From contig JADIMR010000088.1 of the NCBI GenBank assembly GCA_017694565.1, forward strand, positions 1-54,534: a stretch of 54,534 nucleotides of DNA, read 5' to 3'. This stretch comes from Candidatus Enterocola intestinipullorum. Its GTDB lineage: Bacteria > Bacteroidota > Bacteroidia > Bacteroidales > Paludibacteraceae. Below are positions 2,940 through 44,302 of the stretch, piece by piece. The translations under genes and the position numbers were made by a program. The notes beneath the pieces were generated by a model. That model ran no database searches, had not been told where the DNA came from, and worked only from the letters and a program-made list of their open reading frames with translations. Within the stretch, counting starts at the first letter, position 1, and each line of letters begins with the position of its first letter.

Positions 2940-4121
2940 TTATTCCTTTAATTTCAATACCTGCCTTAATACGACCATGCAATAAATAAACGCGGCGAGG
3001 GAGATGGCCGCGCCGGCGTAGCCGATGTAGTCAATCGACGAGTATGTGCAGACGAAGCCGCCCAACAACGTTCCTGTCCCTATGCCCATGTTGTATATGC
3101 CCGAATAAATCGACATGGCTACGGCTGTGGTTTCCTGCGGCGTGTTTTTTATTATCTGGTCCTGGAAAGCCACGCTGAACATGGTGATATGCAAGCCCAT
3201 CGAAGCGCACATTATCGCTGCCGTAACATGGCTTATCGTTGACGGGTAAAGCAATGCCATCGACAGGGTTATGCCGCCCAAGGACGCGCTGATGAATGCT
3301 GCTTGCCTGTTGTTGTAAAATTTGGAAAACAGCAAACTTGCGAAGATGCCTGCCAAACCGTATATGGAAAGCGTTATTGTAACGGCTGCGGGGTTCATGC
3401 CTGCCGATTGCAACAGGAACGGTTCCATGTAGCTGTAACCTATATAATACGCGACTGTTACTATCAAGGTAATCAAGTACAGGCTCATTATCAGCTTGTC
3501 TTTCAACAGGACAGGCAGTTTGCCGAGCGAGAAAGTCCCCCTCGTGGGCATTTTCGGGAAAATGGATGCCAAAAACAATGCGACAGCAAGCGTTATTCCT
3601 CCCACAATGGCGAATGTCATGCGCCATCCGACGGCCAATCCTATGGCCCTGCCCAAAGGAAGGCCGGCAATCATAGCGATCGACGTGCCTGTCGCTATCA
3701 TGCTTATTGCCAAGGCACGGTATTTTTCCGGTACTGCCCTTGCGGCCATCGGGGTGGCTATCGACCAGAATACCGAATGTGCCGCAGCGACAATCAGACG
3801 GGAAGCCATAAGCATGTAGTAAGTCGGGGCTATGGCGGACAAGGCCTGTCCTGCGGCAAACAGTGCCAAAACGCACAGAAGCAGTTTTTTCATTTCCATG
3901 CGCGAAGCCAATATCATGAGCGGCAGCGAGAATATCGCCACGAACCATGCGTAGACCGAGATTATCAATCCGGCCTTTGCCTCGGAGACGGTGAAATCTT
4001 TTGCAATGTCCGTGAGCAGGCTTACGGGCATGAACTCGGAAGTGTTGAAAACAAAAACGGCGAATGCCAACCCGAGCAGCGACATCCATTGTCTTACCGT
4101 CATTTTTTCCAGTATCTGCAT
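2940..4121 (-). CDS. MFS transporter, DHA1/SotB-like sugar or drug efflux family
   Basis: 393 aa, 12-TM pattern, SEFMPVSLLTDIAKDF... start typical of the SotB/YdhP-like family. Confidence 0.85.
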   Translation of the reverse strand: MQILEKMTVRQWMSLLGLAFAVFVFNTSEFMPVSLLTDIAKDFTVSEAKAGLIISVYAWFVAIFSLPLMILASRMEMKKLLLCVLALFAAGQALSAIAPTYYMLMASRLIVAAAHSVFWSIATPMAARAVPEKYRALAISMIATGTSIAMIAGLPLGRAIGLAVGWRMTFAIVGGITLAVALFLASIFPKMPTRGTFSLGKLPVLLKDKLIMSLYLITLIVTVAYYIGYSYMEPFLLQSAGMNPAAVTITLSIYGLAGIFASLLFSKFYNNRQAAFISASLGGITLSMALLYPSTISHVTAAIMCASMGLHITMFSVAFQDQIIKNTPQETTAVAMSIYSGIYNMGIGTGTLLGGFVCTYSSIDYIGYAGAAISLAAFIYCMVVLRQVLKLKE

Positions 4122-4265
4122 TCTTGTTTGAAAAAAGCGTGCAAATATAGTGTTTAAGACTTGTAAGACGGGTCCTTGCTGCGGTTAAATATTCGTTGCT
4201 TTTGTTTTCTCAACATTTGCGGCAAATTTTGTATAGTTTTGTTATCGGCATAATATATAAAAATG

Positions 4266-4273
4266 TATCTTTG
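4266..4273 (+). promoter_or_regulatory. Bacteroidetes-type -7 box (TATCTTTG)
   Basis: TATCTTTGC upstream of ATG 4305, TTTTG about 24 nt upstream; it argues against the ORF-track start at 4263. Confidence 0.5.
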
Positions 4274-4304
4274 CCACTTGGAAAACAACGAAATCTTAAA
4301 CAGA

Positions 4305-6176
4305 ATGAAAAAACTTACTCTTTCATTGGCTTTGACGTTGTTGTCGGCAATAGTACTGACGGCGACCGCCAAGACCATTTATTTCAACGGGGGGTGGTCG
4401 GCTACTCCGTATGCTTACGTATACTACGAAACGACGTCGGCCACCGAGTATCTCGGCGAATGGCCCGGGACCGTCATGCAGGCCGATGGTCAAAATGCAG
4501 GTTGGTATTCCGTGGCAATCCCCGACGACGTTCCGGACGGCACCCTCGTGATTTTCAACACCAATACAGGATCTGAGCGTTATCCGGCCGACAGTGAACC
4601 GGGTATTGGAATGCCTTGGCTTTCCACAGGGCAGGATGCCGCTTATTACGTGCTTGCCGACAAGCAATGGTACGATGCCATTCCCGCTGAAAAACCGGTG
4701 GTTACGGCTAATCCATCGGGCGGTCGTTTTGCGGGCAGCGTTACGGTTACCCTGTCTTGCAGCATGGATGTGGAAATACATTACACCACCGACGGCAGCG
4801 AACCCTCTGCCAGCTCGCGTGTTTATTCACAACCTCTTACCTTTACCGAAACCACGACATTGAAAACCTTCGTTGAAAACGAAGGTTCGTCCAACGTGCA
4901 AACTTTTAAATATACTTACAGCGAGGGCGGATCTTCCCAGACATATCCTTCGTTCAACAATACATATTACCAGACGAACCCGGATGGCAAAGTCGGCACG
5001 AACCGTACCATAAACATGGTTCATACCAATGGCATATCTTCCTCGGCTTTGTCCGAATGGACCGATGCGGAATTGATAGCACAAGGTATCGCGAACGACA
5101 TCCAGCAGCGTTTCAACGGCGGACACGAGTGGTCGCTGTGCGACGTTTATTCGCTTTATGCCGCTTACGATGCGGATTACCTGTATTTGGGTTGCCAATA
5201 TGTGAATACATCGGGTTTGGACAAGGAGCATTCGACACCGTACAGTTCCATGTTGCCTATATGCGTGGCATTGGATTTGGATCCTGATTTGGATTGTACC
5301 GGAGCTATGGCAGACGGACAAGATGCCGAAGGACCATGGCAAAAAAACAAACAATTCCTGAACTTCGAGAACAGAATGGACTGCATGGTGATGTTCCATA
5401 CCCAGACCGCCCAAGGTACTCCCGGCGTTTTCCTCCCCGATGCGGATGGCAAATTCTCGTATGACGAGCAGTATTGCAAGACTGTGGATGCACGTGCTTA
5501 CCAACAAGGCTTGCTGCCTTCAATTACTGAAATTTGGGGTAAAACATCGAATGACGGCAGTGAAGCTTTTTATGCCGACGCGCAATATGACGGCACTTAT
5601 TCCAACGTGGGCAAGATTGATGACCCCAACGCATTCTTGCAGGACGAGAGCAACTTTGGCGACTTTTTGCCATCATGGGGCAGTGAATACCATACTTTTT
5701 ATGAAGTGAAGATTTCGCTTGCCACCCTCGGCATATCGGAAGATTATATCAAGAACACCGGTATCGGCGTGATGTGGATTTCCACACACGGCGAATCTGC
5801 CACCAGCAGCATACCGTACGATCCTACATGTTTCGACAATGTCATGAACCCGTACAGCGAGGATTCAAGTACGAGCGAGGAAAAGGAGGACGAGGATTAC
5901 TTCACATACGCGATGGCAAGGGTAGGCAAGCTTGCCGGTACACCTTCGGCAATCGATGAAACTGTTGATAACGAAGGTGGCGCGGTCGTTTCGGTTGCCA
6001 ACAAGGTGATTACGGTTTCCGGCAACGAAGGCAACGACGTGGCCGTGTACGACATGGTCGGCAACTGCGTGGCTGCCGCAAACCAGGTTGAAGAATCTGT
6101 CAGCTTCAATGTTCCTTCAAAAGGCACTTACGTGGTAGTTGCAGGCGACAAGGCCGTCAAAGTCATGGTCTTATAA
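4305..6176 (+). CDS. Secreted starch-binding protein: CBM26-like module, chitobiase C-terminal-like domain, CBM9-like region, T9SS-like C-terminal domain
   Basis: Signal peptide MKKLTLSLALTLLSAIVLTATA; KTIYFNGGWSATPYAYVYYETTSATEYLGEWPGTVM; VEIHYTTDGSEPSASSRVYSQPL; tail DVAVYDMVGNCVAAANQ...GTYVVVAGDKAVKVMVL. Confidence 0.75.
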   Translation: MKKLTLSLALTLLSAIVLTATAKTIYFNGGWSATPYAYVYYETTSATEYLGEWPGTVMQADGQNAGWYSVAIPDDVPDGTLVIFNTNTGSERYPADSEPGIGMPWLSTGQDAAYYVLADKQWYDAIPAEKPVVTANPSGGRFAGSVTVTLSCSMDVEIHYTTDGSEPSASSRVYSQPLTFTETTTLKTFVENEGSSNVQTFKYTYSEGGSSQTYPSFNNTYYQTNPDGKVGTNRTINMVHTNGISSSALSEWTDAELIAQGIANDIQQRFNGGHEWSLCDVYSLYAAYDADYLYLGCQYVNTSGLDKEHSTPYSSMLPICVALDLDPDLDCTGAMADGQDAEGPWQKNKQFLNFENRMDCMVMFHTQTAQGTPGVFLPDADGKFSYDEQYCKTVDARAYQQGLLPSITEIWGKTSNDGSEAFYADAQYDGTYSNVGKIDDPNAFLQDESNFGDFLPSWGSEYHTFYEVKISLATLGISEDYIKNTGIGVMWISTHGESATSSIPYDPTCFDNVMNPYSEDSSTSEEKEDEDYFTYAMARVGKLAGTPSAIDETVDNEGGAVVSVANKVITVSGNEGNDVAVYDMVGNCVAAANQVEESVSFNVPSKGTYVVVAGDKAVKVMVL

Positions 6177-24586: not shown

Positions 24587-24617
24587 AAAAAGCGGACTTT
24601 CAAAGTCCGCTTTTTTT
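24587..24617 (+). terminator. Rho-independent terminator
   Basis: AAAAAGCGGACTTT-C-AAAGTCCGCTTTTTTT. Confidence 0.8.
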
Positions 24618-24630
24618 ATGGGTATATGGA

Positions 24631-24676
24631 CCTCTCGCCTTTCACCTATATTTGTAGAATATAGGATGCGGCTCGG
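24631..24676. repeat. Intergenic repeat family C, copy 1
   Basis: CCTCTCGCCTTTCACCTATATTTGTAGAATATAGGATGCGGCTCGG; internal hairpin CCTATATT...AATATAGG and embedded TATATTTG. Confidence 0.75.
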
Positions 24677-24716
24677 AAAAGCATATTCGGTAGGTTTGTT
24701 GTGTTGGTATAAGAGG

Positions 24717-24765
24717 TTCTCGCCTTTCACCTATATTTGCTTCGCCAATATAGGATGCGGCTCGG
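24717..24765. repeat. Intergenic repeat family C, copy 2
   Basis: TTCTCGCCTTTCACCTATATTTGCTTCGCCAATATAGGATGCGGCTCGG. Confidence 0.75.
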
Positions 24766-24804
24766 CAGAGGCAAACTGAAAACTACGTTTTCGTTTGCCT
24801 CTGC
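24765..24804. repeat. Long hairpin between family C copies
   Basis: GCAGAGGCAAAC...GTTTGCCTCTGC, 12-bp perfect arms with inner GAAAAC/GTTTTC. Confidence 0.75.
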
Positions 24805-24842
24805 TCTCGCCTTTCGCTATATTTGTAGAATATAGGATGCGT
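24803..24842. repeat. Intergenic repeat family C, copy 3
   Basis: GCTCTCGCCTTTCGCTATATTTGTAGAATATAGGATGCG. Confidence 0.7.
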
Positions 24843-24935: not shown

Positions 24936-26060
24936 ATGGATAACAACGAAAAAAAAACTATCGAGCTTTTTACTTGCAAAAACGCATTCGATTATGAACA
25001 TACATCCGAATTGTTTTTGGAGTCAGTAAAAGAAATGTTCGAGTTTCACCGTTCACACTCGGTAATATTTAAAGGTATATGCGAGCAATATGGATTTACC
25101 GTAAACGACATAAATAGCGAGGAAGACATACTGAAAATTCCTGCTGTTTTTGTTACGGCCTTTAAAGAACGAAAACTTTTGTCGTTGCCCGAAAGCGAGA
25201 TAGTGCGAACCTTTACCTCGTCCGGAACAACTGGGTCTGTGAGCCAAATAAACTGGGATGCCGTGTCTCAGGAACGGCAAGAAAATATGCGCCGTTGGAT
25301 AGTGGAAAGCTACGGTTTGGCAGCATACGACCAGAAAGTCAATAATCTGATATTTTCGTATGCACCGGACATTTCAGGCAGTAAAGGTGCGGCACATACC
25401 CACGGGGCATATACTTCGTTCGCTCAAGAAAACGAAAGTTTTTACGCCATACACAAGGGTAAGAACGGAGAACCGGAATTCAAGGTTGAGGAGTGTATAG
25501 AAAAGTTGAGGCAGTTTGCGGCTTCGGGGCTTCCATTGCGCATAACGGGCTTTCCTGCTTTCGGATATATGACAATGCTTGAGATGGAAAAACGCGGTAT
25601 ATCGTTTAAATTCCCTGACGACAGTCTGTTGTTTTCTGGTGGAGGTTGGAAAAACTATACAGGAAAAACTATAAGTTTTGAGGAGTATGTGGCATTGGTG
25701 AACAAGGTATTCGGCATAAAACGTGACAGAATACGCGATGTATACGGTATGGTGGAACATGGTGTGCCTTACATAACCTGTGAATGCGGACACTTGCACG
25801 TACCGATATATTCGCGTGTATGCGCGGTGTCTCCCCACACAATGCAGATACTGCCCGATGGCAAGATCGGTTTGTTGAAACTGATAAGCCCTTATATCCG
25901 AAGTACGCCGTCGTTGTCGGTGTTGAGTACCGACTTGGGCGCGGTTATGGGAAATTGCGAATGCGGTCGCCCTGGTAAGTATATCGTACTTAAAGGTAGG
26001 GGAGGCGTTAAAAAATATGCAGGTTGTGGCATCTCCGCAGCACAATTGTTAAGCCGATAA
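24936..26060 (+). CDS. LuxE-like acyl-protein synthetase
   Basis: IPAVFVTAFKERKLLSLPESEIVRTFTSSGTTGSVSQINWD; CECGHLHVPIYSR; CECGRPGKYIVLKGRGG. Confidence 0.88.
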   Translation: MDNNEKKTIELFTCKNAFDYEHTSELFLESVKEMFEFHRSHSVIFKGICEQYGFTVNDINSEEDILKIPAVFVTAFKERKLLSLPESEIVRTFTSSGTTGSVSQINWDAVSQERQENMRRWIVESYGLAAYDQKVNNLIFSYAPDISGSKGAAHTHGAYTSFAQENESFYAIHKGKNGEPEFKVEECIEKLRQFAASGLPLRITGFPAFGYMTMLEMEKRGISFKFPDDSLLFSGGGWKNYTGKTISFEEYVALVNKVFGIKRDRIRDVYGMVEHGVPYITCECGHLHVPIYSRVCAVSPHTMQILPDGKIGLLKLISPYIRSTPSLSVLSTDLGAVMGNCECGRPGKYIVLKGRGGVKKYAGCGISAAQLLSR

Positions 26061-26098
26061 TTATCGATTGTTTTTTAAAGATTAAAATTAAACGCTAT

Positions 26099-28771
26099 AT
26101 GACAGAATGGTATTTTTTCGGTGAGTTGCGCAATTCTGAGAAAATTACGCCGGCCGATATGCAAGAAATAATGGATTATGCCAAGCAACGCAAAAACTAC
26201 CTTAGAAATGTACCATACGCATATATTTTGGATATACTTAATCGTACCGGCGATTTGTTCGCTTGTACAGACGGCGAGTTTTACAAAAATGTGGTGGAAT
26301 CCATGCACAAGCAGCTCGGTTGGTCGCGCGAAATGGTTAAGGAAGGGTTGGCGTTAATATCCGATGTGTTGCAGTACGATAATCTCGAAACACGTTTGCG
26401 TGCTGACTTGGATAATCCAGAATGTTTGGATTTCTTTACCTACAACAAGGCATTTAAAGGTATGGTTAAGGCTGAACCTTACGGTGTGGCATCGCACGTT
26501 TCGGCAGGTAATGTTTTTGTAGGAGCGGTTGATACTTTGGTGCAAGGGCTTATTACCAAAAATGTAAGCGTGCTTAAAATGTCTTCTGCCGACCCCGTTT
26601 TTCCCGTGCTTTTTGCCAAGGCCTTAAAATCGGTGGATTACGATGGTGTTCTGGCCTCGTCTTTTGCCTTGGTTCCTTTCAAGGGCGGAGACAAGGAAGT
26701 CGAAGCCATTGTTAAGCAGCAGAGCGATGTTTTGGTGGTATATGGGGGTAAAGAGACTGTTTCTGCTTATCGCGACGGTATCGGGTTTCACACAAAAATG
26801 ATCGAGTACGGCCCCAAATACTCCTTATCCATTATCAGCGAGAAAATGATCGATGATGATAACATTGACGATATCGCTATTAAAATAGCCCGCGATTTTA
26901 CCATGTGGGAGCAGTCGGCTTGTTCTTCGCCCCATGCGGTGTTCATAGATTCGCCTGTCAAGGCAGAGAAGTTTTCCCAAAGTCTTAAAAAGGCTTTGGA
27001 GTATTGGGCAAAGAAGATTCCCCATAGTACAATATCCACAAACGAGGCCGTGGAAATTTGTCGTACCCGTGAGTTGGCACGAGTGGACGAGGCTCTCGGC
27101 GAAGCGAAACTTATAATCCCGTCTGTCGATAATCAGGATTGGACTATCATCTTGCAAAAGAAATGCGAGTTCAAAGTGTCCCCGCATCATCGCACGGCAT
27201 ACATTATCGTATCGCCCGATCATGATAAAGACACATTGGCTGCAATAGCCGATTACGGGCAGTTCATTCAGTCGGTGGCTTTGTTAATGCCGGCTGAAAA
27301 ACGATTGGCTTACAGCGACAAGTTGGTGTCCATGGGGGCTGATCGCATTACCGGAATAGGTTGGATGGCAAGGCGCAAACATGGTACTCCGCATGATGGT
27401 ACGCGAGGCACTTCGGAATTGCTGCGCTGGGTTTCTACGGGAGAGGACAAGCCTTTTGAAAATGCGTTCGACTATTTGCCGGACGAGCAGCGCGAAAGAA
27501 ACGTGTTGTTGCGCTTGAACGCCTTTTTGCGTTATTGCCGCAAGCATTCCGAATATTACAGCGAGGTATTGCCTGACAAGGATCTAAAATCGCTTGCGGA
27601 ACTTTCCGAATTGCCTGTTTTGGTTCCGGATGTACTAAAAAGCAAAATTCCTCCCAAAGGCGAAGGCATATTGACGGCACCTTTGGGTTACAGTATATCG
27701 TTTGGCAGCGGCGGCACCACTGGCGATCCGAAGTACATTCATCGTACTAACATTGAAAACCATAAAAATGCCGAACTTATAGGCAAGGGGTATGCCTTGT
27801 CCATATTTGATAAGGATGATATTGTAGCCAATTTATTGTTTGCCGGCAATATGTGGGCATCGTTCTTAAGCCATAACGAGGCAATAGAAGCTACGGGGGC
27901 GCACGTCCTGCCGATAGCCGGAAACATAGCCATGACTGACATGATTTCTGCAATTAGGGCGTTCAAGCCTACGGGGGTGGTAACTATCCCGTCGGTGATG
28001 CTTTCGTTGGCGGAATATGTGGAGAACCATCATCTTGATGACATACGAATTCCCAAAGTCGTAACGGGTGGAGAACATCTTTTCCCAGATGCGAAGGCTT
28101 ACATTGCAAAAGTTTTGCATACCGAAAAATTTGCTTCCACTGGTTATTTGAGTAACGATACAGGATGTATAGGTTTTCAGTGTGAATGTTGCAGCGGTCC
28201 AGTGCATCATATACATGAAGACTATTGTATAATGGAGGTTGTTGATCCGGAAACTAATATGCCGGTACCCGACGGCGAAGACGGCAAGATACTTGTTACT
28301 AATTTCAATCGCAGGTTGATGCCCCTGATCCGCTACGATATAGGCGATATGGGCAGAATACTCACTCGAAGATGCTCTTGTGGCCGGCAAGTAAAACTTA
28401 TGGAGTTGTTGGGGCGTTCCGATGATACTGTCATTATAGGCGGCGGAAACATTCAGTTGGATTCAATAGCGCAAGTCATAAGCAAATACGAGCAGCTTTC
28501 TTATCATTTCAGAATGGTTGCGGAGTTGGAAGACTGCAAAGACAAACTCACCATAGAGGTCGAAACCGTCAAACCCATGTCGCAAGAAGAGTACGAAAAT
28601 CTTGCAAGACAAGTATATGATACGTTGCTGGTAGAAAAGCATGAATTTGCGAACTTTATGAAAACCGGCAGCATAATTCCACCGGTAATAAAAGTGGTTG
28701 CACCTGATACTTTGCCACGAAATCCTCGAACAGGCAAGTTGAAACAAGTGATAGACAAAAGACATGTATAA
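26099..28771 (+). CDS. Fusion protein: LuxC-like acyl-CoA reductase + PaaK/F390-synthetase-like AMP-forming domain
   Basis: N-half VASHVSAGNVFVGAVDTLVQGLITKNVSVLKMSSADPVFP and MWEQSACSSPHAVFI (LuxC-type Cys motif); C-half SFGSGGTTGDPKYIHRT, LMELLGRSDDTVIIGGGNIQLDSI, LPRNPRTGKLKQVIDKR (adenylation motifs). Confidence 0.9.
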   Translation: MTEWYFFGELRNSEKITPADMQEIMDYAKQRKNYLRNVPYAYILDILNRTGDLFACTDGEFYKNVVESMHKQLGWSREMVKEGLALISDVLQYDNLETRLRADLDNPECLDFFTYNKAFKGMVKAEPYGVASHVSAGNVFVGAVDTLVQGLITKNVSVLKMSSADPVFPVLFAKALKSVDYDGVLASSFALVPFKGGDKEVEAIVKQQSDVLVVYGGKETVSAYRDGIGFHTKMIEYGPKYSLSIISEKMIDDDNIDDIAIKIARDFTMWEQSACSSPHAVFIDSPVKAEKFSQSLKKALEYWAKKIPHSTISTNEAVEICRTRELARVDEALGEAKLIIPSVDNQDWTIILQKKCEFKVSPHHRTAYIIVSPDHDKDTLAAIADYGQFIQSVALLMPAEKRLAYSDKLVSMGADRITGIGWMARRKHGTPHDGTRGTSELLRWVSTGEDKPFENAFDYLPDEQRERNVLLRLNAFLRYCRKHSEYYSEVLPDKDLKSLAELSELPVLVPDVLKSKIPPKGEGILTAPLGYSISFGSGGTTGDPKYIHRTNIENHKNAELIGKGYALSIFDKDDIVANLLFAGNMWASFLSHNEAIEATGAHVLPIAGNIAMTDMISAIRAFKPTGVVTIPSVMLSLAEYVENHHLDDIRIPKVVTGGEHLFPDAKAYIAKVLHTEKFASTGYLSNDTGCIGFQCECCSGPVHHIHEDYCIMEVVDPETNMPVPDGEDGKILVTNFNRRLMPLIRYDIGDMGRILTRRCSCGRQVKLMELLGRSDDTVIIGGGNIQLDSIAQVISKYEQLSYHFRMVAELEDCKDKLTIEVETVKPMSQEEYENLARQVYDTLLVEKHEFANFMKTGSIIPPVIKVVAPDTLPRNPRTGKLKQVIDKRHV

Positions 28772-30218
28772 GACTGTTTCCAAAATAAGCATAAGTTCGG
28801 AGTTGTTTCAAGTAGAGCCGTTGCAGTATTACGTATGCCGTCTTGCCGAGTATTGCAAAGTGCCGGATAACAAAATGCTTTCGTTGCAGATTCTTGTAGA
28901 GGAGGTGATAACGCATATCATAAAGAAAGCTTGCAACGGCAAAAGCGATGAAACCATAGAGCTTACGGTTTCGTATATGCCGGGTGTGTTCGTCCTTTCT
29001 TTCCACTATTGGGGACTGCCGTTCGGTTATGACATAGACAAGCCGCAAGACGAGGGCGATTTCATAAGTATGCAGCTTATACGCAAGATGGGGTCGTCGT
29101 ACAAGATGAAACAAGACGGCAAGGCAGGGCAAACCATAGAGATTCAGATTGCTTTGAATCTGAGCGTGGAGGAGCGCAAACCTTTGGCCGAGGTGTCGGA
29201 CAAGGCACTCGCAACAGATGAGGTAAGCATACGCAAAATTGAGCCTGACGATATGGAATCGTTGGTACAATGTTTGTATTCGGTTTTCGGTTACAGCTAT
29301 TCTGCCGACGATGTTTATTTCCCTGATGCCATACGTAAAAAATTGGTTGAGGGCAGTTACGACGGCATTGTGGCAGTAAATACCTCCGGTGCGATAGTCG
29401 CTCATGTGGCCATGCTCAAGGATTCTCCGAGTGATATGGTGTGTGAGTGCGGACAGGCATTTGTCCTGCCTACGTATGGCAGGCGCGGCTTGTTTGCCAC
29501 CTTAAAAGAACGCTTGCTTGAAGTTGCCGATCAAAAGGACCTGTATGGTGTTTATAGCAGTGCCATAGCCAGTCACCCGTATACGCAAAAGGCTAATTTG
29601 GCGTTGGGATGCGTGGAAGTTGGATTGGAATTGGCGTATATCTTGGCAGATTTGCAAAGTTTCATCGATCGTGATGGCAAGGAAGAACGCCAGTCTGTTG
29701 TAAGTTTCTTTCATACATTGAGCCGGCAGAACAAGCAGAAAATACTTGTTCCGGCCGAGCATTGCGACATTATACGTAAAACATACGAACTTCTTGCAAT
29801 GGATCGGGATTTTGTTACCGTGTCCGAGCAGGCATTGCCGGATGTTCCATCGGAAATAGAGTCGAGTGTTAAGACGGCATGGAATCAGGTACATATAAAA
29901 ATCAATAATGCCGGTAGTGATTTATTGCGCCATATAGATGGTATAATAAGGCGGTCAATGGCATCGGGTTGCGTGATGTGTTATTTGTCGTTGCCGATGT
30001 GTCGGGAGTTTACTCCTGCTGCCGTGTATGCTCTGCAAAAGATGGGATTCTTTTATTCCGGCATATTGCCATACGGCTTTGACGGCGGAGATATGCTGCG
30101 TATGCAGTGTCTGCTTGGAGTAGATGTTTCGCCTGAATATGTGGTTACTGCAAGCGAGTGGGGCAACGAGTTAAAAAATTATGTTTTCATGCAGAAAAAC
30201 AAATACAATATATGTTGA
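28764..30218 (+). CDS. RsbW-like HATPase domain (degenerate) fused to GNAT acetyltransferase-like domain
   Basis: N-terminus LAEYCKVPDNKMLSLQILVEEVITHIIKKAC...VLSFHYWGLPFGY aligns with the HATPase of 31436-33766; then VSIRKIEPDDMESLVQCLYSVFGY...CGQAFVLPTYGRRGLFATLKERLLEVA (GNAT). Overlaps upstream CDS by 8 nt. Confidence 0.8.
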   Translation: MYKTVSKISISSELFQVEPLQYYVCRLAEYCKVPDNKMLSLQILVEEVITHIIKKACNGKSDETIELTVSYMPGVFVLSFHYWGLPFGYDIDKPQDEGDFISMQLIRKMGSSYKMKQDGKAGQTIEIQIALNLSVEERKPLAEVSDKALATDEVSIRKIEPDDMESLVQCLYSVFGYSYSADDVYFPDAIRKKLVEGSYDGIVAVNTSGAIVAHVAMLKDSPSDMVCECGQAFVLPTYGRRGLFATLKERLLEVADQKDLYGVYSSAIASHPYTQKANLALGCVEVGLELAYILADLQSFIDRDGKEERQSVVSFFHTLSRQNKQKILVPAEHCDIIRKTYELLAMDRDFVTVSEQALPDVPSEIESSVKTAWNQVHIKINNAGSDLLRHIDGIIRRSMASGCVMCYLSLPMCREFTPAAVYALQKMGFFYSGILPYGFDGGDMLRMQCLLGVDVSPEYVVTASEWGNELKNYVFMQKNKYNIC

Positions 30219-31423
30219 AACAGAAAGGAATTTTAAGTAAAAATTATTTGCTGTTATGGTCGGGGCAGCTTGTAAGCCAGATGGGAAACAGATTATATCT
30301 GATGGCCTTGTCGTGGTATTTTGTTTCGGAATTGGGCGATAATACAGCATTGTTTTTGGTATTTATATTTTCGAGTCTGCCATCGTTGCTTTTCGGAGCT
30401 TTCGTGGGCCCGTTCATAGAACGCTGGAATAAAAAACATATAATGATTGGTTGCGACTTTATTTGTGCTGCATTGGTTGGAGTGTTGGCATGGCTGGTTA
30501 GCATAAATGAAGCACACAATTATATCATATACGCAGTATGTTTTTTGCTTAATACGATGAATTTGTTTTTCAGCCCTTCTGTAAATTCAATGATACCGTC
30601 CATACTTGATGAGGATAGCTACCAGCAAGGAATGTCGTATATGAAAATGATTACTTTTTTGGGGCAAATCATGGGAGCGGCGGTAGGAGGATTGCTTGTA
30701 GGATTCTTCGGAGTATATCTTACCATACTTATAAATGCCATATCGTTTTTTATTTCCGGTTTGGCTGAAATATTCATCACCTATAAACCCGAAATAGTCC
30801 AAAAGACGGGATCTTATATAAGCGACTTAAAAAGTGGTTTGAAATATGCGTGGTCAGATAAAACGGTACGGTCCGTGCTTACCGTCTCAATCGCTTGTAA
30901 TTTGTTCATTCCTACATTCATGGTTTTCCTGCCCATAGTCATTAAGACTCATTTGGGATTAGATGCCCGTCATTATGGCTTTGCTGATGCCATGATGCCG
31001 ATGGGAGCGGTTGTCATGGCAGTGTTTTTATCTAAAGTCAAATTCAATTTGCAGCCATTGCAAGTGCTTGCCACAGGTATAGGTGGCTTAGCTGCAGCAT
31101 TTATGCTAACAGTATTTTTACCATATTATCCGGTGATAATGTTCAGTGTTTTTTGTTACGGCTGTTTTACCAATTTCATAAACATACAGGTCATAACTTA
31201 TTTCCTGCATAGGGTTGATAAAGATTTTCGGGGTAGATTCTTTTCCATTCTGGAGTCGTTCTCGTTTGCGTCCATATCAATATCTTATGTTTTGTCAACC
31301 ATATTGTCGTCCCAGTTCGACACCAAGATTGCAATATTGATTAATGCCGTTTGTCTTATAATAATAACGTTGACAGCCCTGATGTTGCAACGTTCAGTTG
31401 ACAAGGTTAATGTAAAAGCTTAG
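30212..31423 (+). CDS. MFS transporter, MFS_3/EntS-like exporter
   Basis: YLLLWSGQLVSQMGNRLYLMALSWYFVSELGD...; start overlaps upstream stop (ATGTTGA). Confidence 0.88.
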   Translation: MLKQKGILSKNYLLLWSGQLVSQMGNRLYLMALSWYFVSELGDNTALFLVFIFSSLPSLLFGAFVGPFIERWNKKHIMIGCDFICAALVGVLAWLVSINEAHNYIIYAVCFLLNTMNLFFSPSVNSMIPSILDEDSYQQGMSYMKMITFLGQIMGAAVGGLLVGFFGVYLTILINAISFFISGLAEIFITYKPEIVQKTGSYISDLKSGLKYAWSDKTVRSVLTVSIACNLFIPTFMVFLPIVIKTHLGLDARHYGFADAMMPMGAVVMAVFLSKVKFNLQPLQVLATGIGGLAAAFMLTVFLPYYPVIMFSVFCYGCFTNFINIQVITYFLHRVDKDFRGRFFSILESFSFASISISYVLSTILSSQFDTKIAILINAVCLIIITLTALMLQRSVDKVNVKA

Positions 31424-31435
31424 TAATAGCTGTAT

Positions 31436-33766
31436 ATGTTTCGTTCGTTTTCCACAAGATTAAGTGTTTACATATTGATAATATCCGGCATGGTTTTTTG
31501 CTTTGCCACGGCTATGTTTTACAGTTACTCGAGCGAACGGGAAGAAAAACAAGCCATACGCTATACCATGTCGCTCATTAATAATATGTCGTTGAGTTTG
31601 GGCGAAACTTTGGAACAGATAGAAAACGAGTTGAATTATACGGGACAGTTTATAACTGATTCGGGTACGAATCCCAATTTGCCGGCAACGGTGGAGCGTA
31701 TAATTAAAAACATACCATCAATCATGGGTAGTGGCATAGCCTTTGAACCATATTGTTCTCCTTCGGGAGATGAGTATTGTATGTATTATACAAATTTGGA
31801 CAGTACGGGTAATGCACATACCAAGATGTTGGGAGGAAAGGATTATGACTACTTTGAAATGCCGTGGTACAAAGAAACCATAAAATCCGGGAAACCAGGC
31901 TGGTCCAAACCTTATTTCGACAAGGGCGGAGGGAATCGTCTTATGATTACTTATTCTGTTCCGCTTAGAGACAAAAACGACCGCATATATGCAGTTATAA
32001 CGGCGGATTTGTTTTTGAACGAGTTTTCCTCGCAGTTGGACAGTCTAAAGCCGTATAATGATAGCTATACTTTTTTGTTAAGCAAAAACGGAACATTCCT
32101 TGCCCATCGCGATAAGAAACTTGTTATGGCAAGTACCATATTTTCAATATCCGAGAAAGCAGGTAATACTTCTTTTGCAGAGTTGGGCAGAAAAATGCTC
32201 AATGGAGAGAGTGGCACTTACGTAATTACCAATTTTGACGGGGATCACGCTCTCGCTTTTTTTACTCCAGTGCCCATTTTGGGCTGGTCTATATGTAATA
32301 TCTGCCCGTATGATACTATCTTGGGACACGTGCGTTATACAGCCTTGCTTGCCCTTATAGTGCTTATGTGCTGTTTGTTGGTGCTGTCCGTTGGTATAAG
32401 AATCATGGTGAAAAAACAGACTCGTCCTCTCGAAATGTTTGCGGATGCGGCACGCAAAGTGGCTAATGGAAATTTCAATGAGGCTTTGCCCGAAATATCC
32501 ACAAAGGATGAAATGCTTACCCTTCGCGATTCATTTGCATACATGCAAAAGTCTTTGGCGAAATACATCGAGGATCTAAAAATAACTACCGCCGAGAACG
32601 AGCGTATAAAAAACGAGTTGGATATTTCGCGCAATATACAAATGGATATGTTGCCATTTGATCTGCCCGAGTTTTCTGTTGGACAGGATGTGGAGCTGGC
32701 TGCCGAATTGGTGCCGGCAAAACAGGTAGGAGGCGATTTGTACAGTTACAGTTTGCGCGATAATAAATTGTTTTTTGCCATTGGCGATGTATCCGGTAAA
32801 AGCATACCTGCCGCATTGGTTATGGCTGTTACCCAAAGCCGTTTCAGCAGTGTTTGCAATTATACAGATTCCCCTGCTGAAATAATGAACTTTATAAACA
32901 AGCAAACTTCGGACAAAAACACAAGATGTATGTTTGTTACCATGTTTGCCGGCGTATTGGATTTGTCGAACGGTAAACTTCGTTATTGCAATGCAGGTCA
33001 TGAATTGCCGTTATTGGTAACTGCCGACGGACGTTCGGCTTTCGTGGACATAAGAAAAAATCTTCCGTTGGGAGTTTGCGGCGATTTCCGGTATCGTGAA
33101 AGCTCGTTGGTTTTGGAGAAAAATTCCAAAATTGTTTTGTATACCGATGGCGTTAGCGAGGCAGAGGACAAAAAGCATTGTTTGTTTTCGCGAGACCGTT
33201 TGCAGGAACTTGCCGGTCGCTTGTCGGACAAAAATGCCAAAGAAAGTGCAAACATAATATTGCAGGCAGTTAAAAATTATGCCGATGGAGCAGATCAGAG
33301 TGATGACATAGCTGTTATGGTGCTTACATACAAGGGCGATAGGGGCGAGCTTATTTATAAGGACGAATTAGTCATGAAGAACTCTGCCGATGAATTGAAG
33401 AAACTGTACGGTTTTATCGGAAAAGTTGCAGAAAAGTGTAAGTTTGATCCGAAATTGAGCAACAATGTTTTGCTTGCCGTGGAAGAAGCAGTGATAAATA
33501 TAATTTCGTATGCTTACGATAAAAACACCGTAGGATATATAGATATTAGTGTACAGTGCACAAGTAGTGTGTTGCAGTTCCACATAAAAGACTCGGGAAA
33601 GCCTTTCAATCCTTGCGCTTCCAAAGCTGTGGATACTACGCTTACGGTGAAGGAAAGGCCAATAGGAGGCTTAGGCATATTCCTAATGGAAAAACTTATG
33701 GACGAGGTAAGTTACCAACGTACAAAAGACGGTTACAACTGCCTTTGCTTAAAGAAATTAATATAA
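31436..33766 (+). CDS. Membrane sensor (Cache-like) - HAMP - SpoIIE/PP2C phosphatase - C-terminal HATPase
   Basis: Two TM regions; LVPAKQVGGDLYSY, FAIGDVSGKSIPAALVMA, KIVLYTDGVSEAED, DQSDDIAVMVL (SpoIIE); LLAVEEAVINIISYAYD / HIKDSGKPFNP / PIGGLGIFLMEKLMD (HATPase). Confidence 0.92.
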   Translation: MFRSFSTRLSVYILIISGMVFCFATAMFYSYSSEREEKQAIRYTMSLINNMSLSLGETLEQIENELNYTGQFITDSGTNPNLPATVERIIKNIPSIMGSGIAFEPYCSPSGDEYCMYYTNLDSTGNAHTKMLGGKDYDYFEMPWYKETIKSGKPGWSKPYFDKGGGNRLMITYSVPLRDKNDRIYAVITADLFLNEFSSQLDSLKPYNDSYTFLLSKNGTFLAHRDKKLVMASTIFSISEKAGNTSFAELGRKMLNGESGTYVITNFDGDHALAFFTPVPILGWSICNICPYDTILGHVRYTALLALIVLMCCLLVLSVGIRIMVKKQTRPLEMFADAARKVANGNFNEALPEISTKDEMLTLRDSFAYMQKSLAKYIEDLKITTAENERIKNELDISRNIQMDMLPFDLPEFSVGQDVELAAELVPAKQVGGDLYSYSLRDNKLFFAIGDVSGKSIPAALVMAVTQSRFSSVCNYTDSPAEIMNFINKQTSDKNTRCMFVTMFAGVLDLSNGKLRYCNAGHELPLLVTADGRSAFVDIRKNLPLGVCGDFRYRESSLVLEKNSKIVLYTDGVSEAEDKKHCLFSRDRLQELAGRLSDKNAKESANIILQAVKNYADGADQSDDIAVMVLTYKGDRGELIYKDELVMKNSADELKKLYGFIGKVAEKCKFDPKLSNNVLLAVEEAVINIISYAYDKNTVGYIDISVQCTSSVLQFHIKDSGKPFNPCASKAVDTTLTVKERPIGGLGIFLMEKLMDEVSYQRTKDGYNCLCLKKLI

Positions 33767-33778
33767 AGATTAAACTAT

Positions 33779-34078
33779 ATGGAATTTGTTATAACGGAAG
33801 GAGAAGGTAAATCGAGAATGCGTATTTCCGGACGTTTGGATACCCTCAATTCCGAGAAATTCGAGAAAAGAATCCAAGAACTCTTGCCCCTGACTAAGGA
33901 TTTGGAAATAGATTGCGCGAATCTGGAATATATTAGCAGTTCCGGTTTGCGTTGTTTCTTGTTTCTGTTGAAGTCGGCACAAGAAAGCAAGCATACTGTT
34001 ACCCTTGTAAATATGACAGCTCCGATCAAGGAAGTTTTCGACATCACGGGTTTCAGTTCCATGTTCAATATTATTTAA
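33779..34078 (+). CDS. STAS-domain anti-anti-sigma-factor-like protein (SpoIIAA/RsbV-like)
   Basis: MRISGRLDTLNSEKFEKRIQELL...DLEIDCANLEYISSSGLRCFLFLLKSAQ...VFDITGFSSMFNI. Confidence 0.93.
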   Translation: MEFVITEGEGKSRMRISGRLDTLNSEKFEKRIQELLPLTKDLEIDCANLEYISSSGLRCFLFLLKSAQESKHTVTLVNMTAPIKEVFDITGFSSMFNII

Positions 34079-34246: not shown

Positions 34247-34999
34247 ATGTCTGAAAGGATTTTGGTAGTAGACGATGAGGAAGATTTATGCGAGATCATT
34301 CAATATGGTCTTGAAAAGGCAGGTTTCATAGTGGATGTCGCTTACTCCGCCGAGGAGGTCATGAAAATGAATTTGAATTTGTACAGTCTCTTCCTTTTGG
34401 ATGTGATGATGGGCGAGATTTCAGGATTCAAACTCGGGGCGTACTTGAAGAAGAACGAGAGTACCAAAAACATTCCCATTATTTTCATTACCGCGAAAGA
34501 TACGGAAAACGACAAGTTGATGGGCTTTTCCATAGGTGCTGACGATTATGTGTCGAAACCGTTTTCCATTAACGAAGTCGTGGCAAGGGTCAAGGCGGTG
34601 CTTAAACGGACCACGCCTGTTTTGAAGCAGACCTTGTTGAACAAGGCAATGGGCATACTTGAAGAAAAGCCTGCGGAAGAAGCAGGGCAGTACAAAAGGG
34701 TATCATACGAAGATTTATGCCTGAACCTGCATAACAAGACCGCGTTCATTGGCGACAAGGAGATACAGCTTACCAAAAAGGAATTCGAACTGTTGGCTCT
34801 TTTTTTAAGCAAACCCGATACTATATTTTCGCGTGAGCAGTTGTTGGCTGATGTTTGGAAAGGGGAATCATACGTTTTGGACAGGACCATAGATGTCAAT
34901 ATAACACGCTTGCGGAAAAAGATAGTACCATACGACAGGCATATTGTAACCCGTCAAGGTTACGGATATTACTTTTCAACATCCTCGCATTTATCATAA
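34247..34999 (+). CDS. OmpR-family response regulator (no adjacent kinase)
   Basis: ILVVDDEEDLCEII...LFLLDVMMGEISGF...GADDYVSKPFS; winged helix LTKKEFELLALFLSKPDTIFSREQLL...DRTIDVNITRLRKKI. Confidence 0.95.
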   Translation: MSERILVVDDEEDLCEIIQYGLEKAGFIVDVAYSAEEVMKMNLNLYSLFLLDVMMGEISGFKLGAYLKKNESTKNIPIIFITAKDTENDKLMGFSIGADDYVSKPFSINEVVARVKAVLKRTTPVLKQTLLNKAMGILEEKPAEEAGQYKRVSYEDLCLNLHNKTAFIGDKEIQLTKKEFELLALFLSKPDTIFSREQLLADVWKGESYVLDRTIDVNITRLRKKIVPYDRHIVTRQGYGYYFSTSSHLS

Positions 35000-43600: not shown

Positions 43601-44302
43601 TCAGTCGTCGCTTCTGCCGAAGAACCTCAACAAATAGAGGAACAAGTTCACGAAGTCCAAGTAGAGCGAAAAGGCCGCCATCACTGCTAATTTGCTTGTG
43701 GTTTCGTTTTCGTCCAAATATGCCAACTGGCGCATCTTTTGGGCATCGTATGCCGTAAGCCCCGTAAACAATACTACTCCTACCAAGGAACAAATCCAGT
43801 CTATGCGGCTGCTTTGCAGGAAAAGATTCACCAATGTCGCGATTATCAAGCCAATCAGGGCCATTGTAAGTATGCGTCCCCAGCTCGTGAGGTCTTTTTT
43901 AGTGAAGTGGCCGTACAACGCCATCGCTCCGAACATTGCCGAACAGATGAAGAACGTGCTTGCTATCGACGACATGGTGTAGACTAAGAATATCGAAGAC
44001 AAGGAAATTCCCAGCGTGAAAGCGTATGCCAGAAACAAAATCCTTGCCGTTGTAAACGACATCTTGTCCAATCTCGCTATCAGTATGAACGCTATGGCCA
44101 GTTGGGAGATGATTAATATCCACATGATGCTGCTTGAAGAAAACAGCAATTGCATGAATGCCGCGCTTGTCCCGCAAATATAGGATGTCAGTCCAGTTAT
44201 GGCCAAAGCCGTGAACATCCATCCGTATGCTTTGGAAACTATCGAAGCCTGTCTTGTCTTGACTTCCGCGCTTAAAAATCCGTTTTGTTGATCGATTTGC
44301 AT
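43601..44302 (-). CDS. Bax inhibitor-1/YccA family membrane protein
   Basis: VSKAYGWMFTALAITGLTSYI...FTGLTAYDAQKMRQLAY...LYLDFVNLFLYLLRFFGRSDD. Confidence 0.93.
   Translation of the reverse strand: MQIDQQNGFLSAEVKTRQASIVSKAYGWMFTALAITGLTSYICGTSAAFMQLLFSSSSIMWILIISQLAIAFILIARLDKMSFTTARILFLAYAFTLGISLSSIFLVYTMSSIASTFFICSAMFGAMALYGHFTKKDLTSWGRILTMALIGLIIATLVNLFLQSSRIDWICSLVGVVLFTGLTAYDAQKMRQLAYLDENETTSKLAVMAAFSLYLDFVNLFLYLLRFFGRSDD

Follow-up and report, generated by a model that had tools for sequence, protein, structure and literature searches.

The window analysed here, the whole 54,534-nucleotide (nt) stretch of contig JADIMR010000088.1 (C71 in our set) from Candidatus Enterocola intestinipullorum, carries a predicted operon of six co-directional genes (24936-34078, checked on the open reading frames and on the DNA) in which acid-reducing enzymes of the LuxE and LuxC type and a predicted exporter are joined to the parts of a partner switch. 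On balance, we favour a reading in which a partner switch with a Cache sensor controls the GNAT in a pathway for an exported, acid-derived small molecule, possibly an aldehyde or an N-acyl compound. The evidence comprises the gene set and domain order, the recurrent co-localisation of the genes in other genomes, the loss of ATP-binding motifs in the HATPase fused to the GNAT, and the intact catalytic residues of LuxE, LuxC, the phosphatase, the kinase and the STAS protein. Individually, the components of the operon are of known kinds. The six genes are as follows.

24936-26060, + strand: LuxE-like acyl-protein synthetase, 374 amino acids (Pfam LuxE, alignment with lux LuxE, match to PDB 7xc6 chain E)
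26099-28771, + strand: LuxC-PaaK fusion, ATG start (Pfam, NCBIfam, alignment with lux LuxC, matches to PDB 7xc6 and 4r1l)
28764-30218, + strand: HATPase-GNAT protein, an RsbW-like domain with a tandem GNAT (profile, alignments, structure models)
30212-31423, + strand: predicted MFS exporter, ATG start (Pfam MFS_1/MFS_3, NCBIfam)
31436-33766, + strand: membrane sensor, dCache-HAMP-SpoIIE (PP2C)-HATPase (Pfam and motifs)
33779-34078, + strand: STAS protein, 99 amino acids (Pfam STAS 1e-14, alignments)

Two junctions overlap, by 8 nt (28764-28771) and 7 nt (30212-30218), and the other gaps measure 38, 12 and 12 nt. This confirms the layout described in an earlier sequence-only reading of this DNA, which had also noted that the locus lacks LuxA/LuxB and any sigma or anti-sigma target; indeed, no LuxA, LuxB, LuxD, sigma or anti-sigma gene is present among the six operon genes or the scanned flanking genes.

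Of the chemistry predicted for the operon, the part with the best support is the activation of a carboxylic acid and its subsequent reduction to an aldehyde. The LuxE-like protein matches Pfam LuxE (2.2e-41), and the fusion protein matches LuxC (2.4e-78) together with AMP-binding and AMP-binding_C_2, the LuxC acyl-CoA/acyl-protein reductase spanning residues ~1-450 and the PaaK-type adenylate-forming ligase residues ~465-890. In alignments with the proteins of a luxCDE reporter, Cys275 of LuxC (26921-26923) and the C-terminal acyl-accepting Cys364 of LuxE (26025-26027) are invariant, and the P-loop SSGTTG of the LuxE-like protein is kept as SSGTxG in the reporter LuxE. Each of the two proteins has a match in the solved LuxC-LuxE complex (7xc6), and the fusion additionally matches PaaK structures (4r1l). 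It is the combination of the 7xc6 matches with the two cysteines and the SSGTxG motif that argues for acid activation and aldehyde formation, and the kept catalytic residues support the acyl-reduction chemistry put forward earlier. The NCBIfam equivalog cut-offs are widely missed, with 100.4 versus 550 bits for LuxE and 130.9 versus 750 bits for LuxC. Bioluminescence was rejected, as LuxA, LuxB and LuxD are missing from the locus. A free-standing PaaK of the cluster type was also considered elsewhere in the metagenome-assembled genome (MAG) that carries the operon, and rejected: the two other PaaK homologues there (L002, L003) are non-orthologous to the cluster PaaKs.

The sensor protein combines dCache_1 and HAMP with SpoIIE (7.4e-47) and HATPase_c_2 (3.8e-25). 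Its phosphatase part contains the metal-binding aspartate motifs of PP2C enzymes (GGDLYSY, GDVSGK, YTDGVSEA and QSDDI), and the HATPase fused to it keeps the N-box Asn, the G1 Asp and the glycine-rich lid within the motifs EExxxNI, DSG and GGLGI. In the STAS protein a putative phospho-acceptor, Ser54 (33938-33940), lies within YISSSGLR at a position conserved in the alignments. A full partner-switch set of phosphatase, kinase and STAS protein is therefore found at the locus without a sigma or anti-sigma gene, as had been claimed. The proposal that the switch is self-contained also holds genome-wide, within the limits of a MAG (G000, 1.8 Mb) that is 84% complete and has Rikenellaceae MAGs as its nearest named relatives: it encodes a single STAS protein and a single canonical RsbW-type kinase, each of them within the operon, and its sole further HATPase_c_2 match is the domain fused to the GNAT. 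Against the SiaA equivalog NF038263 we obtained 83.6 bits with a cut-off of 700 bits, and no GGDEF domain or diguanylate cyclase is encoded in the operon.

The HATPase-GNAT protein comprises an RsbW-like HATPase (residues 1-130) and a tandem GNAT (residues ~152-484). Here, both parts score under the Pfam thresholds (HATPase_c_2 0.0028, Acetyltransf_1 0.012), and the assignment is upheld because of the homologues, the profile match and the structure model. HATPase_c_2 is matched by 20 of the 24 family members, the family profile matches RsbW and SpoIIAB structures, and a model built from a 24-row alignment (predicted local distance difference test score, pLDDT, of 82), which replaced a poor one from an 8-row alignment (pLDDT 67), has an alpha/beta domain at its N-terminus and, beyond it, two domains resembling GNATs. 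Foldseek matched the pLDDT 82 model to GNAT structures, and the weaker pLDDT 67 model to SpoIIAB/RsbW (target template modelling score 0.71-0.83) and to a tandem GNAT. The identity first given to this protein stands, with the corrections that its HATPase is degenerate in this clade and that its GNAT is a tandem.

In the GNAT-fused HATPase the ATP-binding motifs are gone: the N-box Asn is replaced by His51, the G1 Asp by Tyr82, and the glycine-rich lid is shortened. The Rikenellaceae members have likewise lost all three features, whereas the SpoIIE-fused kinase of the operon retains them; the N-box is retained in several other Bacteroidales homologues. With its ATP site destroyed, this domain is unlikely to have a kinase role in this clade, where we accordingly rejected a second active kinase within the GNAT protein, and it is probably a docking site for the STAS protein instead. 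In the GNAT part R157, Y185, P187, G262, H271 and Q275 are invariant, and activity as an acyltransferase appears likely but not certain. HATPase-GNAT proteins constitute a widespread, uncharacterised Bacteroidales family (L116-L134), often standing alone or in a switch operon, and full-length members are present in 22 of 393 genomes.

The co-localisation of homologues in other genomes, on which the earlier reading could be checked, is conserved with a reshuffled gene order. The genes are found together again, differently arranged, both within Rikenellaceae and in further families of Bacteroidales, which speaks against a chance grouping. In one layout (B; L004/L005) SpoIIE-HATPase and STAS are followed by LuxE, LuxC-PaaK, HATPase-GNAT, MFS, PaaK and a second PaaK-like gene. 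Another (C; L012-L015), partly interrupted by contig ends and with L014 and L015/L011 partial, has SpoIIE on the opposite strand and a separate RsbW, with HATPase-GNAT, LuxC-PaaK, LuxE, PaaK, MATE and a PaaK-like gene. HATPase-GNAT also lies beside LuxE/LuxC-PaaK in five further Bacteroidales genomes. In L047 the genes are MFS, HATPase-GNAT with its C-terminal GNAT split off, LuxE and LuxC-PaaK, with a SpoIIE gene close by; L124, L130, L132 and L135, from other families, contain LuxE, LuxC-PaaK, PaaK and HATPase-GNAT with or without STAS/SpoIIE. Four of these five clusters were found via HATPase-GNAT itself, which leaves the LuxE search as the sole independent test: LuxE was detected in 11 of 271 genomes of the order, and four of these (G000, G760, G1217, G1282) carry HATPase-GNAT in the same cluster. 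HATPase-GNAT genes adjoin STAS/SpoIIE genes in ten neighbourhoods. Within the genus, STAS is present in 5/5 LuxE-positive versus 2/11 LuxE-negative genomes, the latter two (G040/G115) having a stand-alone SpoIIE-HATPase and STAS pair.

Among the relatives, sequence identity is highest for the enzymes (LuxE 74-77%, LuxC-PaaK 64-70%) and lower for the regulators (HATPase-GNAT 39-46%, SpoIIE ~36% in layout B, STAS 41%). The operon is rare, and a phylum-wide single-sequence search with LuxC-PaaK at a strict cut-off matched the window alone; outside Bacteroidota the coverage consisted of plasmid records and one pattern scan. The MFS protein belongs to the MefA/EntS-like H+ antiporter group and matches MefA/MefB/EntS-type efflux models of NCBIfam. 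MFS or MATE exporter genes adjoin most related clusters, and across the Rikenellaceae layouts an exporter gene is kept, MFS being replaced by MATE in layout C. The exporter gene named in the earlier reading is thus supported, and export of the product itself is presumed.

In the reading we favour, carboxylic acids would be adenylated by LuxE and by the PaaK part of the fusion protein, LuxC would convert the thioester so formed into an aldehyde, the tandem GNAT would move an acyl group onto an amine in the same pathway, presumably in this order, and the MFS protein would export the product. A periplasmic ligand at dCache would set the balance between the SpoIIE phosphatase and the fused RsbW-type kinase, and hence the phosphorylation state of STAS Ser54. 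The HATPase-like part of the GNAT protein may then serve as a receptor on which unphosphorylated STAS docks, and docking would, whichever the direction of control, activate or silence the acyltransferase, alone or in complex with LuxE/LuxC-PaaK.

Several observations weigh against this mechanism. LuxE, LuxC-PaaK and GNAT, with MFS and/or PaaK, occur without the switch on a plasmid of Streptomyces NBC_00158 (L053), on a Salmonella IncF plasmid (L051) and in another Bacteroidota genome (L063); a further Salmonella IncF plasmid (L059) is like L051 without an annotated GNAT. Conversely, HATPase-GNAT is found without LuxE/LuxC in L116-L129 except L124. In L121 and L129, for instance, an NMT1-like binding protein, Cache-SpoIIE, RsbW, HATPase-GNAT and STAS are encoded together, and L128 is the same minus STAS. 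The coupling is therefore not obligatory, and the switch is not essential to the biosynthetic set. Layout C has its single STAS gene away from the cluster, and motif A of the GNAT is atypical (GRRGLF), which renders its catalysis uncertain. Since each half is found separately, the operon is best described as a recurrent merger of two modules. HATPase-GNAT clusters fall into both of the two groups of the LuxE tree, in which some branches are moderately supported, and so the merger arose repeatedly or was lost repeatedly.

Classical RsbUVW/SpoIIE switches end on sigma factors, and the operon is followed by a gene for a PhoB-type response regulator. Both are consistent with a switch that governs gene expression via an unseen anti-sigma or transcription factor, the GNAT-fused HATPase being merely a competitor or sink for STAS. 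We consider this unlikely, as the only two HATPase_c_2-type STAS partners found in the MAG are both in the operon (though at 84% completeness a further one may be missing from the assembly), no anti-sigma gene was found in the scanned flanks, and the HATPase is joined to an enzyme and not to a sigma-binding protein. It also seems improbable that the product is a cell-surface glycan or lipid modification and that the MFS protein has another role. This explanation draws on Bacteroidales LuxE-LuxC pairs (L046, L048, L049) located among ACP-, SDR- and transketolase-like and sugar-related genes, named by their sequence starts only, in clusters resembling those for surface polysaccharides. However, the LuxE of such clusters forms a separate clade and their LuxC is unfused to PaaK, neither the operon nor its Rikenellaceae relatives contain a glycosyltransferase, ACP or SDR gene, and an MFS or MATE exporter is adjacent in most related clusters.

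No more probable is a detoxification or resistance unit that would reduce and acetylate an aromatic or fatty acid taken up by the cell and then expel it, with the sensed acid as inducer. Two to four adenylating enzymes plus a reductase and a GNAT exceed known detoxification machinery, and an acid tends to become more toxic once reduced to the aldehyde, although the efflux models matched by the MFS protein, the common pairing of GNAT and efflux pump in resistance, and the related set near recombinase and toxin-antitoxin genes on conjugative Salmonella plasmids would all fit. That the biosynthetic cluster and the signalling cassette are independent and merely share an operon would agree with the occurrence of each alone (the SpoIIE-STAS pair of G040/G115; the biosynthetic set of L051, L053 and L063), but we regard it as very improbable, because their adjacency outlasts complete gene-order reshuffling and the GNAT of the cluster itself carries a fused signalling domain.

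The sensor-gated pathway can be taken one step further, if tentatively. The STAS signal might directly gate the biosynthetic acyltransferase via the fused pseudo-HATPase, providing post-translational control of an exported acid-derived signal or antibiotic, and HATPase-GNATs might be a general, undescribed output class of partner switches in Bacteroidales. For the HATPase-GNAT protein as a new class of output we see a fair chance. If true, this would add a new output class for partner switches as well as small-molecule clusters of a new family, equipped with a ligand sensor. The partner switch is here tied to a biosynthetic acyltransferase of an acid-reducing pathway by gene fusion and conserved clustering, and the enzyme core of the pathway is also present in Streptomyces and on a Salmonella plasmid. 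In the open-access literature (subscription journals and preprints lie outside this coverage) we found neither a published description of the operon nor the fusion of a degenerate RsbW-like domain with a tandem GNAT, nor its LuxE/LuxC-PaaK setting.

Upstream of the operon a GH30 gene ends ahead of a hairpin, which is likely a terminator parting the two.

24587-24615, no strand assigned: candidate terminator hairpin, a perfect 14-bp inverted repeat followed by a T tract, after the GH30 gene

The PhoB-type response regulator gene lies downstream at 34247-34999, and the neighbouring genes have housekeeping or unrelated roles (enolase, PFOR, patatin, CHU_C protein, ExbB, PdxJ). Synteny of the window around PurM is not shared by genus mates. 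A phage or defence origin of the operon was rejected, with no match in PHROGs or PADLOC. A palindromic intergenic repeat of the CTATATTTGTAGAATATAGGATGCG type is present in three ~25-nt copies 5' of the operon, spaced by 89 and 82 nt, its positions in the window being 24645-24841 and 44175-44184 (- strand). CCTATATTTG occurs 3 times in the window versus 0.12 expected, and the CTATATTTGTAGAATATAGGATGCG-type repeat includes TAnnTTTG, the Bacteroidota -7 promoter motif.

Further observations concern related loci. PaaK-like proteins of 449-466 amino acids and 43-56% mutual identity are encoded in L012 (10096-11496), L004 (16585-17937) and L130 (5642-6991), the first having no Pfam match. In L120 (G824:C54, 6422-8659) a STAS domain is joined in one protein to a TCAD9 (ternary complex associated domain 9) region that shows an APH/kinase-like match, and the gene adjoins HATPase-GNAT, RsbW and SpoIIE genes. 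In L117, another Bacteroidales genome, an aldehyde dehydrogenase-family gene (3656-5077) lies between the STAS/SpoIIE and HATPase-GNAT genes. The two Salmonella enterica conjugative IncF plasmids (L051, L059) carry LuxE, LuxC-PaaK and PaaK, and GNAT in L051, near recombinase and toxin-antitoxin genes; no DNA relatives of this set were found across 5,426 E. coli genomes. On a plasmid of Ca. Thiodictyon syntrophicum (L055, 11932-16982) a HATPase-less GNAT homologue lies by HATPase, SpoIIE, substrate-binding protein and STAS genes, that is, the same parts unfused in a gammaproteobacterium.

Compared with known systems, the operon shares with the lux fatty-acid reductase (LuxC-LuxE-LuxD; 7xc6) the LuxE and LuxC domains with acyl-accepting and catalytic cysteines, and likely the reaction type, from acid via acyl-AMP and thioester to aldehyde. 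In contrast to lux it has no LuxD or LuxA/LuxB, its LuxC is fused to a PaaK ligase, and its scores lie far under the NCBIfam equivalog cut-offs. For GriC/GriD of Streptomyces griseus, PMC10179220, citing Suzuki 2007, describes an AMP-forming enzyme and a reductase converting a carboxylic acid to an aldehyde in grixazone biosynthesis. The likeness, by domain type only, is that of a paired AMP-ligase and reductase in a natural-product pathway. We know of no partner switch there. The clavulanic acid pathway (PDB 2wpx/2wpw) similarly uses a tandem GNAT, with two successive GNAT folds in a biosynthetic context, the match being a low-identity fold comparison only, whereas the GNAT of the operon is preceded by an RsbW-like domain. 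With RsbU-RsbW-RsbV and SpoIIE-SpoIIAB-SpoIIAA the operon has in common a PP2C phosphatase, a GHKL kinase and a STAS protein with a conserved serine; it differs in having no sigma target at the locus and in the fusion of phosphatase and kinase in one Cache-sensor protein. Partner switches that target enzymes are established in SiaC-SiaD, HsbA-HsbD and BgrV-BgrR (PMC8457831). In SiaABCD, HsbA-HsbD and BgrSTUWV-BgrR, as proposed here, a phosphatase and a kinase act through phosphorylation of a STAS or STAS-like protein to control an enzyme and not a sigma factor (PMC8457831), but their output is a diguanylate cyclase, while the candidate output of the operon is a tandem GNAT that carries a degenerate HATPase and is encoded among biosynthetic genes.

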